Of a DNA stretch of 64,000 nt, positions 1,990 to 55,110 are shown in pieces. A program made the translations under genes and the position numbers. The stretch is from Labia minor (taxonomy: Eukaryota; Arthropoda; Insecta; Dermaptera; Spongiphoridae), in assembly GCA_963082975.1 (NCBI GenBank), contig OY720346.1, positions 68,501,267-68,565,266 on the forward strand, written 5' to 3'. Each line of letters opens with the position of its first letter. The first letter of the stretch is position 1. A model generated the notes under the pieces. The model saw nothing but the letters and a program-made list of their open reading frames with translations, was not told the DNA's origin and made no database searches.

Positions 1990-2170
1990 ACGATATGTAT
2001 GAATATATATATATATGTCTGTCTGTCTGTCTGTCTGTCTGTGTGTGTGTCTGTCAAATACTCAAAAACTACCCGTCCGATTGCGATGAAACTTTCAGGG
2101 ATTGTTGTGGGCGTCCCAGGGAAGGTTTTAGTGTAGTTAAATCCAAAATTAATTTATCCAAAATTAATTT
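1990..2170 (+). repeat. Microsatellite-core repeat, (CTGT)n
   Basis: A (CTGT)n/(GT)n tract at about 2017-2050 is followed at once by CCGTCCGATTGCGATGAAAC and TTTCAGGGATTGTTGTGGGC. The opposite strand reads AAGTTTCATCGCAATCGG, the same kind of core seen beside microsatellites in families A, B and C. Boundaries are unclear. Confidence 0.5.
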
Positions 2171-2559
2171 AATTAGTAATATTTTGGTAAAAGTCTATTT
2201 ATGGTTACCATGGTTACATTGAAAAATTTACAATAAATAAATAAAAAAAATTGGAAATCTTTTCAACTTATTATTTTGATAAATTTTATTAATATTTTTA
2301 ATTTTTTTTAAACTGCCAAAAATAACATACCCATAATAATAGTTGTAATAAAAATAAAAATATAAATCACAATGTAAGTAAAATATTGAATCGTTTTATT
2401 TATATTGTTTCAATTATTGTTTGAATATTTATTAAATTTATATATAGATTAATTTACATGTTTAAATGTATATTTAATAAATTTATTTATTGATTCTTAA
2501 TATTAATAATTCCAATTACTTTCTTGAAATTTTTTTTTATTTAAAAGCATATTCAGCAT

Positions 2560-3105
2560 ATCTCGCAAATTTGAATTGGATTAAATAACATATATTAATT
2601 TAAATTAAATTAAATTAATTCAATTATAAATTAAAATTAATAAATAATATTTATTAAACCAGCGAAAGTTTGGCTCTTTTTTGATGGCACCACGTCACAT
2701 GTTGGCGCGTGAGATTTCCAGTGTTAAAAAAATTAATTCTGGTACATTCAGCAATTCAATTTTCGATGTTGAGATTTTGATGTTTTTGATGTTATAAATA
2801 ATATTTATTAAATTATAATTTAATTAATTTAATTTAATTTAAATTAATAAATATTATTTAATCAAATTCAAATTTGCGAGATAGTCGAGTGGATAGTGGA
2901 GTGTTTGGCTCTTTGTTGATGGCACCACGTCACGTGTTGGCGCGTGAGATTTCCAGTGTTAAAAAATTAATTCTGGTACTTTCAGCGATTCTATCAAGCT
3001 CAAATTCTATATATAGCAGTTTTATACAATTATTAATCCTGTGAAAAATTATCAAACATATATCTTTATTTTTACGGTCACACACACACACACACACATA
3101 TTTAA
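2560..3105 (+). repeat. Rearranged family A fragments
   Basis: Two partial family A copies lie close together. At 2565-2790 an end piece (ATATCTCGCAAATTTGAATT) runs to the ACGTCACATGTTGGCGCGTG block, then jumps to the opposite-end sequence TTTTCGATGTTGAGATTTTG, so the middle is deleted. At 2800-3100 a reversed end (GCGAGATAGTCGAGTGGA) abuts another copy of the GTCACGTGTTGGCGCGTGAG block running into (CA)n. Confidence 0.7.
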
Positions 3106-3519
3106 AAATTAATTTATTAAAATATATATTATATAATATATTATATATAGTATATAATTTAATATATATATATATATATATATATATATATTCAGAAATT
3201 AATTTTAAATTATATAAATATATTAGAAATTAATTTAATATAATTTAACACATAATAATATATTAAAATATTTTATTTTATATATACATAATTTGGTAAT
3301 ACTGATTATTAATGTAAATATAAATAATAATATTTAATATGGCAAATATGTAAAATTTTGTAAAGAATGTATCAGAAGTTTAGTGTCTAACATTCTGGCG
3401 TATTGCGCATGCGTATATCGGTCGGGTCGGTGTCGTTTTGGAATCTCACGCGAAATCTATATTTTTTCCCCATCCGCAAAAGTGCTCAACGCCGCTAAAG
3501 AAGTTTTCACTTCAAAAAA
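3105..3519. other. AT-rich and unassigned sequence
   Basis: Long (TA)n at about 3161-3191, then AT-rich DNA. A GC-richer island at 3395-3505 (GCATGCGTATATCGGTCGGG) matches nothing else I found here. Confidence 0.4.
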
Positions 3520-3649
3520 ATTTGAAATACAAATTGGAATAATCTAATTTTTGATATTAATATTAGTTTTTATCATAAAAGAGAATTTATTAAATATAAT
3601 AAACACAAAAGAAACCTGTCAAAATTATTAATTTGTTATTAACTTCATT
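3520..3649 (+). repeat. Family E repeat, left half, interrupted by family A
   Basis: Matches 44960-45108. The right half resumes at 4262; family A copy 3650-4261 splits the two. Confidence 0.75.
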
Positions 3650-52539: not shown

Positions 52540-53201
52540 CAGGGCCGCGGCGTGCACGTGTGCAAGGTGGGCGCTGCCCACGGGCGCCTGGTGTAGGGGG
52601 CGCCAAACTGACCATTCTTTTTTATTTTATTTTAAGTGTTTTAAAAATGAATCAATATAATTGTGTACGTGAATCCTACGACACGTTTAAATATATTTTC
52701 CAAATTTGTTTGTTTTACTGCGTATCTTTCTAACCTTGCCCGTAACTGTAGCTTCGGGTGAACGAAGCTTCTCTAAGTTAAAAATTATAAAAACGAATTT
52801 GCGTTCGACATTGTCGCAGGAGCGCTTAACAGATCTTTCTATGATAGCAATAGAAAATGAAATCATGGATAACTTAGAAATATATGATATTATTAAAGGT
52901 TTTGTAGCTTCAAAGGCTCGAAGAATCCGAATAGTATAGTTTTGTGATGGAATTTCATATTGTATTATGTTTTCATTTTTGAATTTTTTTTATGTTTATT
53001 GTTCTAGAAATTTAACCTTGTTTCTATTGTTAATGAGTTAATTATTTTGTTATTTCCTATTATTATGTAGATAAATTCCTCTGTATTCATAAACACAGTT
53101 TTCAAAATTAAATGTTTTATTTGATTTTATTGTTCTATTGATAGAGGGGGCGCTTTTTAAAAATTTGCACACGGGCGCTTTGCACCCACGTCGCGGCCCT
53201 G
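52540..53201 (+). mobile_element. hAT transposon, internally deleted, 662 bp
   Basis: Ends CAGGGCCGCGGCGTG and, inverted, CACGTCGCGGCCCTG. Perfect 8-bp duplication CTTGAGAC at 52532-52539 and 53202-53209. Subterminal GGGCGC motifs at both ends. It sits inside the composite repeat, so it is the younger. Confidence 0.96.
52706..52939 (+). CDS. hAT transposase C-terminal dimerisation domain (remnant)
   Basis: hAT transposases dimerise through a C-terminal domain that also completes the active site. The frame encodes LTLPVTVASGERSFSKLKII, then RSTLSQERLTDLSMIAIENE, and ends FVASKARRIRIV. The ASGERSFSKLK and L-x-x-ERL-x-x-L signatures are diagnostic. The catalytic N-terminal and middle parts are deleted, so it cannot act alone. 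The frame is open, with no stops, consistent with a recent element. It lies wholly inside 52540-53201; start codon is arbitrary. Confidence 0.92.
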   Translation: MFVLLRIFLTLPVTVASGERSFSKLKIIKTNLRSTLSQERLTDLSMIAIENEIMDNLEIYDIIKGFVASKARRIRIV

Positions 53202-53209
53202 CTTGAGAC

Positions 53210-54100
53210 AATTTATAAAAATTAACGGTATAAAACTATAGATAAATGACCAATATATACATTCATTAATAGTATTAATTTAAATTAATTGATTTATTTG
53301 TTTTTTTATTATTAAGTTCATTTATTAATTTTTTTAGATCATAGTTATTTTCCTCCCTTAAAATAAACTTATCTAATTCTGGTGGTGCTAGGGGATTTGA
53401 AAATCATTCGTCGCAATATGAAGATTTCGCTTACAGTTTCTGTCATGTCCGACCTCCATCCAACAGTTATTTTCTGTCAAGTTTTTTGCTTCTCTTAATC
53501 ATGTGATCTATATATTTAATTTTTTTTGATTCATTATAATAAAATTTAAACAAATAAAAATTTTTACTTTGTTAATTTAATTAAATTTCAATATAAACTG
53601 ATTGTGAGTGATACGCTTAGCCAATTTGTGTACAAAAATATTGAATGTTCTTAGCGAGATTTGATATAATGTTGTACGATTTGTCCTAAATCTGAATTAG
53701 AAGAAAATTATAAATTGCCTCCTCTTCCAGCCCAATTCATTTACCCACCCATGTTGCATATGGCATCTAAATTTCTTAAAACTCCGTTTTTTTAATTTAA
53801 AATAGAAGGAGAGAAAGAGAGTTTTAAATTATATTCGAATAGTCTATATATTCTATATATCAGTATTTTTTTTCTGAATTTAATAGCAAGTTGATTTTAA
53901 AAATTTTCAATTCTTAATGCATATGATTGATTACATGTGTTAAAATTTAAAAAAATTCAAATATTCTAATTTTTATATTTATATACAATTTAATATTATT
54001 TTTTATTAATATCATATCAAAAAAAGAGAATTTATTAAAAATTAAAAATAAAAAAAGAAGCCTATTAATAAAAAATTGAATGGTGATTTAAATATTTTAT
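53210..54100. other. AT-rich sequence, tail of the composite repeat
   Basis: 53210-53280 (GGTATAAAACTATAGATAAA) matches the end of the copy at 49500. The rest is unassigned. Confidence 0.45.
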
Positions 54101-55110
54101 TAAATTAATTAAAATGAGACCTTTTAGAATAAATTATTTAATTGAAATGATATTTAAATATAAGAATTTAAAAAAATATTATATTCTTTGTTTGGCAATT
54201 GTTATTTAATTATGTGCAACATGATTCGACTTGCACAGAGCATCGTTATTTTTTATTAATATCACATAATAAAAATGAATCTTAAACATAATAAATAAAA
54301 AAGACATTTTAATAAATTTAAAAAATATACCCAATTTAAAAATGTCAAAAATTTAAAACAACTTTATATCATCATATTTTAATTTTTATATAATATATAT
54401 ATATATTTAGTAATTAATAATAGAGTAATTAAATTAAAATAAAAAACAAAGATAATATAATTCAGTCATTTTAATTCAGGTTAAATAATATTTTTTTTTA
54501 TTATTCAATGATAAAATTTATATATTATTATATATATATTATAGAAAAGAAGAAATATTCAATTAAATAAAAAATAATTTAAGATAAAAATATGATCTAA
54601 TAAATATTTTAATTAAATTGAGAACTTTTAGAATAAATTATTTAATTGAATTGATATTTGTATATTAGAATTTAAAATAAAAAGGGAAATATTATAATAA
54701 TTCTTTGATTGGGAATAGCTATGATAATTCATTGTTTGAAATGATTCCGCTAGGCCGGCAGTGAGCCGCGAGCTGCTCTTGAATGAACAACACGGAGAAT
54801 TATATAAACTTTAAAAAATTAATTTCTGCGGTTATTGTTGACATATAAATAAAATTTATAGCCTATGTTACTCTAGGGGTATATAAGAATATTGTGATGT
54901 AATTTCAAAGAAATCGGTTCAGCCAATTCTGAGTCTATAAAATAGTAATTTTCCGGACAGACAGACCGACAGACAGACAGACAGACGTGAAAAATTCTAA
55001 AGTCACTTTTGGATTCTAGAGGTCATGAAACGCGAAGATATGCAAAAATTTTTAAATTCTGAGCAATGTGCAGACAAAAACCTTTTTATATATATATAGA
55101 TTAATTAATT
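54100..55110 (+). repeat. Duplicated AT-rich repeat ending in a microsatellite core
   Basis: GACCTTTTAGAATAAATTAT (54110) recurs as GAACTTTTAGAATAAATTAT (54618), about 507 bp apart. 54405-54480 resembles 14785-14870. The right part has ATTTCAAAGAAATCGGTTCA then CAGCCAATTC and a (GACA)n tract at 54958-54985: the shared core. Confidence 0.6.

Follow-up and report, generated by a model that had tools for sequence, protein, structure and literature searches.

Why should repeat families that otherwise differ carry a similar short core beside a microsatellite? The question is raised by a 64,000-nucleotide (nt) stretch of the genome of the dermapteran Labia minor (assembly GCA_963082975.1, contig OY720346.1, positions 68,501,267 to 68,565,266; hereafter the window). 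An initial annotation, made from the letters alone, had described here several unrelated families (A, B and C, with further repeats at 2017 and 54889) in which a common core stands next to a tandem tract particular to each. Our analysis leads us to propose, with a probability of about 0.78, that core and tract are one left-end (5′) module of rolling-circle transposons, presumed to act in cis. The module is read here from the 5′ end of the element through the array to the core, the reverse of the direction used in the initial annotation. The genome searched amounts to 604 megabases, and the window is 73% A+T.

Self-comparison of the window placed family A at nine places, B at five and C at two (Table 1). 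The core is present in eight A copies, with an adjoining GTNN array in seven of them and a degenerate one in A8 (core at 30859), and in four B copies, all of which have an array (13-37 nt). C1 carries both core and array, C2 is truncated ahead of the array position, and a partial A copy retains (CA)n without a core. Array and core are separated by 12-21 nt in the measured A, B and C arrays, by 24 nt in the repeat at 54889 (family E), by 7 nt in that at 2017 (family D) and by 33 nt in a candidate at 9855 (family F). The tracts had been held to differ by family, as (CA)n, (GGAC)n, (ATAC)n and (GACA)n. When the arrays are read with a period of four, from start positions picked by eye, 108 of the 119 units across 14 arrays are GTNN, and the four tracts are forms of one period-4 (GTNN)n array. 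Its units are of the types GTCT-GTGT-GTAT in A and C, GTCT-GTCC in B, and GTCT in D and E; 13 of the 14 arrays open, at the end far from the core, with GTCT, and B4 has CTCT in the corresponding place. The module lies 60-235 nt inside the left end, in Helentron-type and Helitron-type elements alike.

A core model, in the form of a 36-nt matrix, was built from the A, B and C cores and scored on 46 array-strand flanks of arrays of at least 16 nt (A6, A8 and B4 fall outside this set), with 50,000 random 84-mers drawn from the window as background. Ten A, B and C flanks rank first by construction, as the matrix was made from these families. They are followed by E (11.9), D (9.3) and F (0.8) and then by the next array at -4.0, a value that no array flank outside A-F exceeds. 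The E and D scores were each reached by 0/50,000 random 84-mers. At F, where a trace of the core had been noticed, the score does stand above that of the next array, but it is marginal (P = 0.0013, uncorrected). In a leave-one-out comparison, single-family matrices were set against the best of 40 shuffles. The A-only matrix found C (25.4 and 22.3), B2 (20.4) and B1 (16.1) above the shuffle best of 15.7, with B3 (9.8) and B4 (6.4) below it. The B-only matrix found A3 (21.3) above the shuffle maximum of 16.9; the other seven A copies scored 10.0-15.6, below that maximum, and the array-side C cores were absent among the 28 hits listed.

The cores of six families (A to E and H, described below) were also compared in 15 pairs, using one representative and a hand-chosen stretch for each family, a background of 10,000 random 55-mers, and the worse of the two directions. 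Six pairs survive correction by a factor of 15, namely A-B (0.0001), A-C (0.0001), B-H (0.0001), B-E (0.0003), E-H (0.0004) and C-D (0.0022). Together they connect the six families, B standing at the centre. Flanks of 70 nt set against 2000 random 70-mers gave broadly the same pattern, the F-A pair reaching only 0.02-0.13. Of the left flanks, those of A and B are unlike (0.17-0.42) and those of C and E alike (0.002-0.012).

The core was sought as well beside arrays chosen regardless of it. A search of the two strands for six GTCT units gave 12,815 overlapping matches. The first 100 of them correspond to 21 distinct arrays on contig C1 (not to be confused with the element C1), the first 20 of which were fetched, and a matrix score >0 was called a core. 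It lay on the predicted side in 14/20 arrays and on the other side in 0/20. Of the 14 core-bearing arrays, 11 belong to E copies, and the other three are an E-like, a D and an F-type array; since most hits are E copies, the independent units are families, not arrays. The six arrays without a core, sorted by eye, are the F-type L066 and L074, the decayed E-like L061, and L062, L069 and L073, with L062 adjoining an end that resembles a long interspersed nuclear element (LINE). In a second sample of 41 distinct cores scoring at least 8 in loci of the same genome, which is biased toward B and GTCT arrays and includes the window copy B1 (as L017), a GTNN array was on the expected side in 31, on the other side in 0, and missing in 10. 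The association of core and tandem tract first noticed in A, B, C and the repeats at 2017 and 54889 is mostly borne out; the array is degenerate in A8 and cut off in C2.

Families A, B and C are new, and belong to the non-autonomous Helentrons (Helentron-associated interspersed elements, HINEs, of the DINE-1-like kind). Family A starts with ACTATCTCGC, repeats GAGATAGT, and finishes with GCGAGATAGT, the hairpin GAGTG-GAGA-CACTC and CAG(CTAA), lying in T runs; individual copies (A2, A5 and A7) depart from this pattern. Family B starts with ACCGACCGACG and finishes with CGTCGGTCGGT, the hairpin GACCTG-GCCA-CAGGTC and AACTT, with T runs at its ends. The subterminal inverted repeats (subTIRs) are 10 base pairs (bp) long in A (ACTATCTCGC, P 0.002) and 11 bp in B (ACCGACCGACG, P 0.0005), each judged against 2000 shuffles. 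Beside the 5′ subTIR an inner inverted repeat was recognized by eye in A (ACTATCTC/GAGATAGT) and, with one unpaired base, in C (ACTTTCCC/GGGAAGT), and only in part in B. A 3′ palindrome is present in A (GAGTGgagaCACTC), in B (GACCTGgccaCAGGTC) and in C after 19243. The GTCY-rich microsatellite of the left block is represented by the GTNN arrays, which have drifted to GTGT/GTAT in A and C.

The reverse complement of the C 5′ end, ACTTTCCCGC, was sought across the window and found in two places, the 5′ end itself and 19243 (minus strand), where a hairpin follows. The 3′ subTIR at this place, GCGGGAAAGT, was thus predicted from the 5′ end, as a 10-bp match, and its discovery shows C1 to be a full element that encloses B1. 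Both differences between the subTIRs of A and C are matched by complementary changes in the 3′ subTIR. A1 (3650-4261) is inserted in a repeat whose paralogous empty versions lie at 1327 and 45107. At 1327 the numbers of T agree (2+7 against 9), which means that A1 entered without target duplication; the site at 45107 is diverged. From these empty sites and from the T runs that border A and B, insertion occurs at T|T without duplication; no empty site came to light for B or C. The repeat family that hosts A1, the source of the empty sites, occupies 1072-1803, 3514-4304 and 44542-45148.

The families are not unrelated, as had been supposed. A and C are 68-77% identical over about 90-230 bp and alignable along their whole left end, which makes them homologous rather than independent; A and B resemble each other in the core but not in the left flank; and all three are HINEs. 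Genome queries returned 10,190 first-look candidates with A (copy A5) and 906 with B. These are not counted copies, and 40 were scored for each of the two.

Family E, to which the repeat at 54889 belongs, is a complete canonical non-autonomous Helitron. It is bounded by TCTATATATATA on the left and GAGCGCC-GAA-GGCGCTC-TGAGCAG-CTAG on the right and inserts at A|T, with A before 10/12 left ends (T in 2) and T after 10/10 right ends. The window copy is complete (55100-51175) and contains LINE-like sequence. Among the seven D copies examined outside the window (L085-L091), L085 and L086 start with TCTATATATATA...AAAAGGCAAT before the array, a 5′ piece that is missing in L087-L091 and in the window copy. 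All 40 of the 40 scored matches to the D query, among 1251 candidates, show 100% identity (rounded), which marks D as young. Family H starts with A|TCTTATC at 6/6 places, with an array of AT type behind it; the core is present in five of the six (the 31447 copy is without it). Its window score of 9.1 was found by scanning, where about 0.7 such scores are expected by chance, so that H is supported by its place behind a Helitron-type 5′ end and not by the score. The 5′ ends make D and H probable Helitrons. F-type arrays occur outside the window as well (L066, L071, L074).

In addition, L083 has a core scoring 32.9 at its position 2586, just downstream of an E right end and behind an AT-rich stretch; it possibly belongs to another Helitron family. 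Several frames of 1652 amino acids (aa) with Helitron_like_N were also seen in the genome (L092/L093). Two of the copies are >99% alike, with internal 69-nt repeats, in a comparison that fell short of the 5′ end, and the element is probably a recent Helitron. One Rep match among these frames has, about 4.5 kb upstream of it, a 5′ end of H type, which does not by itself show one element.

On contig C1 a left end of B type, carrying both array and core, lies about 2.5 kb upstream of, and on the same strand as, the ATG of a 2181-aa frame (L095/L096, C1:47862800-47873400) with the Pfam domains Helitron_like_N, PIF1 helicase and DUF6570. The first 420 nt of this left end match B1 at 351/382 positions (L017 being the same copy), B3 at 347/366 and L022 at 360/390. 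Left end and frame are likely one element. By reading only, the last residues of the frame resemble an Ulp1-type protease.

The DINE-1/mini-me comparison made in the initial annotation was right in kind, as A, B and C have the published DINE-1/HINE anatomy. The DINE-1/INE-1/mini-me elements of Drosophila are non-autonomous Helentrons; they are like A-C in their subTIRs, the inner inverted repeat by the 5′ subTIR, the 3′ stem-loop, TT insertion and the GTCY-type microsatellite in the left block, while the subTIR sequences differ (PMC2374699, PMC4067079). Their published core of about 90 bp includes a (TA)4 repeat and the sequence 5′ of it (same papers). Similarly, Cg_HINE of the oyster (PMC7492417) and Helitron2_Cv of Calliphora (PMC3630058) have a 5′ subTIR and inner repeat on the left and a hairpin or palindrome on the right, and several Cg_HINEs and Helitron2_Cv share the GTCY-type left microsatellite; as a difference, no satellite-like central array was noted in the window copies of A and B. 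Hel-2/MITE01 of Lepidoptera is described as having canonical Helitron ends and (CTGT)n downstream of a 5′ subterminal repeat, like E and D (PMC4344730), whereas E carries LINE-like sequence. MINE-2 is cited among DINE-1-like elements (PMC4067079) and is also cited in PMC9659126 and PMC6947457. The GTCY array in DINE-1/HINE left blocks and the (CTGT)n of the Helitron Hel-2 are already in print.

A core common to the Helitron and Helentron branches was not found in the searches made of open-licence papers (main text), and six sequence strings had no match in that text. Five queries for relatives in viral contigs gave 0, 15, 0, 0 and 0 loci, and the query with A gave none in plasmids. The 15 viral loci and one bacterial locus were set aside, since they have no tract by the match and look like chance matches in coding sequence. 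MINE-2 of Lepidoptera was reportedly presented by Coates in 2011 as a "(GTCY)n hitchhiking MITE", a GTCY microsatellite in a mobile element. On what we take to be the DINE-1 sequence, the published core of about 90 bp would fall across the array from the core studied here. Presumed sequences of DINE-1, MINE-2 and a lepidopteran Helitron gave core scores of 12.9, 12.9 and 47.0, which serve as a lead only.

What the module might do is suggested by Helraiser, for which the published account describes an intact left terminal sequence (about 150 bp) as crucial and the right one as not strictly required. That the module lies within the left terminal sequence that Helraiser needs strengthens, by analogy, the inference that it may serve replication. 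The module would be inherited, or exchanged between elements, because it is functional in cis in the left terminal sequence. The core could be a site where Rep/helicase engages or unwinds, and the (GTNN)n array would grow and drift by slippage during copying without itself being essential. As cores persist without a GTNN array, the array may be a slippage by-product.

Several observations weigh against core and tract being one functional module. Cores without a GTNN array occur at 47186 (plus strand), at 47118 (minus strand), in H, in L083 at 2586, and as inverted cores inside C. The microsatellite is thus not, as had been supposed, always fixed beside the core, the array looks dispensable, and the suggestion that the core seeds tandem repeats is unsupported in that form. 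Of the two core-like stretches, that at 47186 reaches 30.7, above the shuffle maximum of 22.3, and that at 47118 only 4.9. Judged by eye, A and C are no better conserved in the core than around it. Direct core similarity is weak or lacking for B-D (0.0090), B-C (0.0246), C-H (0.0328), D-H (0.0921), D-E (0.1439), A-D (0.1982), C-E (0.3272), A-E (0.6385) and A-H (0.9148). No 3′ end was located for D or for H. For the frame-linked B-type left end, L026 matches it at only 241/325 positions, a search of the 4.6 kb behind the 2181-aa frame turned up no B-type right end, and Pfam reported no endonuclease domain in that frame; the last two absences are why its unity with the frame is called likely and not shown. 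Pairing of the core with an inverted copy of itself on the left side of the array (fold-back) gave P values of 0.003 (B1, B2), 0.033 (B3), 0.046 (C1), 0.22-0.69 (A1, A3, A5, A7), 0.54 (D) and 0.97 (E, with only 19 nt of left flank entered); these are mixed among families, and fold-back of the core is not claimed.

Two explanations would do without rolling-circle ends altogether. A chance likeness of AT-rich sequence by microsatellites would fit the AT-rich motif and the modest P value of F, and exact 18-mer matches in phage contigs indicate that the short motif alone arises by chance; but the scores of D and E are beyond all of the random 84-mers and no sampled array has a core on its other side, which makes this reading very improbable. 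The tract could instead be the microsatellite tail of retrotransposition, behind a LINE 3′ tail common to short interspersed nuclear elements (SINEs), and the window does hold a LINE-like remnant with a tandem tail (15298-15695). Against this, sequence runs on both sides of the array to the element ends, with hairpin ends, and insertion is in T runs or at A|T with no duplication seen. Element ends and empty sites refute such a tail for A, B, C and E, where the tract is not at the extreme 3′ end, and leave the idea a negligible probability.

The remaining question is how elements with different termini came to have similar modules. Pure descent from one ancestral rolling-circle element, with a left block decaying neutrally and a core and array that are now functionless, would explain why the likeness of A and C extends beyond the core over the whole left end, and why the order of array and core is constant in the scored flanks. 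It accords poorly with the A-B, B-E, B-H and E-H cores, which are alike though the termini differ, and with the unlike left flanks of A and B, although those of C and E are alike; we judge it unlikely. Movement of the module among rolling-circle elements by template switching or end swapping, by which the left block gains new termini, is somewhat unlikely, if less so. Similar modules do stand behind different termini, elements are nested and abutting, and B1 has the B left end without the right-end part present in B2, but no recombinant junction of a Helentron end with a Helitron core was caught. The notion that one core was passed among families keeps its basis in these similar cores behind different termini, Helitrons included, but not its premise of unrelated families. 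Taken as a sequence likeness, the cross-branch module is likely real for B-E, B-H and C-D. It is possible, at somewhat less than even odds, that the Helitrons and Helentrons here, which are treated as two structurally distinct branches, have one conserved left-end cis module of short tandem array and core, a recognition or unwinding site for the rolling-circle transposase that would have been kept or exchanged between the branches while both termini were replaced. If the module is common to Helitrons and Helentrons because it is functional, a specific left-end stretch of about 36 nt is available to mutate. In either case, the motif becomes an assignable transposon part, which explains the look-alike flanks of many microsatellites here; with 11/20 sampled GTCT microsatellites lying in a single Helitron family (E), such loci would be poor markers.

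Table 1. Rolling-circle elements, modules and core-like stretches in the window.
Feature	Position	Strand	Details
A1, family A, full copy	3650..4261	+	5′ ACTATCTCGCC, array 3765-3798, core 3811-3846, 3′ hairpin, CTAA; empty sites
A2	21606..22202	+	core at 21769
A3	39551..40162	+	core at 39714
A4	35635..36420	+	long (TG)n array; core at 35962
A5, query copy	33941..34543	-	core at 34393
A6	32784..33331	-	left end lost; core at 33245
A7	23041..23644	-	abuts B copy; core at 23497
A8	30412..30880	-	left end lost, degenerate array; core at 30859
Family A, partial, rearranged	2559..3081	-	(CA)n at 3079, no core
B1	19411..19931	-	within C1; core at 19761
B2	23645..24267	-	core at 24113
B3	62854..63492	-	core at 63346
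B4	14505..14738	+	array, core at 14660
Family B, right-end part	7200..7570	-	3′ hairpin
C1, HINE with nested B1	19211..20445	-	5′ ACTTTCCCGC, array, core 20211, 3′ GCGGGAAAGT 19243 and hairpin; last base approximate
C2, fragment	46685..46957	-	cut before array
Family D, module	2016..2098	+	(GTCT)n 2016-2055, core 2063-2098; TC end absent
Family E	51175..55100	-	array 54956-54986, core 54896-54931
Family F	9822..9912	-	GTCT array, marginal core
Family H	37798..37899	+	5′ A|TCTTATC..., AT-type array, core 37864-37899
Inverted pair of core-like stretches	47083..47221	47118 minus, 47186 plus	no array

Other features of the window were noted in passing. The inverted core-like pair (46970-47250) adjoins the truncated C2. 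The remnant at 15298-15695, which we take to resemble the C-terminus of a LINE reverse transcriptase although Pfam is silent, ends in an (ATAG)n tail, and related stretches lie at 4548-4679 and inside E (51404-51813). A minus-strand open reading frame (ORF) at 49719-50255 has a stretch presumably akin to insect Dpr Ig proteins, which Pfam did not confirm; for three window ORFs Pfam gave no match up to E 0.1. A tRNA-like head followed by further sequence and an AAG-rich tail makes 47410-47690 SINE-like, by reading only. Finally, a near-perfect inverted repeat at 45354-46349, with 383-nt arms that are 99% complementary and 230 nt apart and with further inner repeats, looks like a foldback element.

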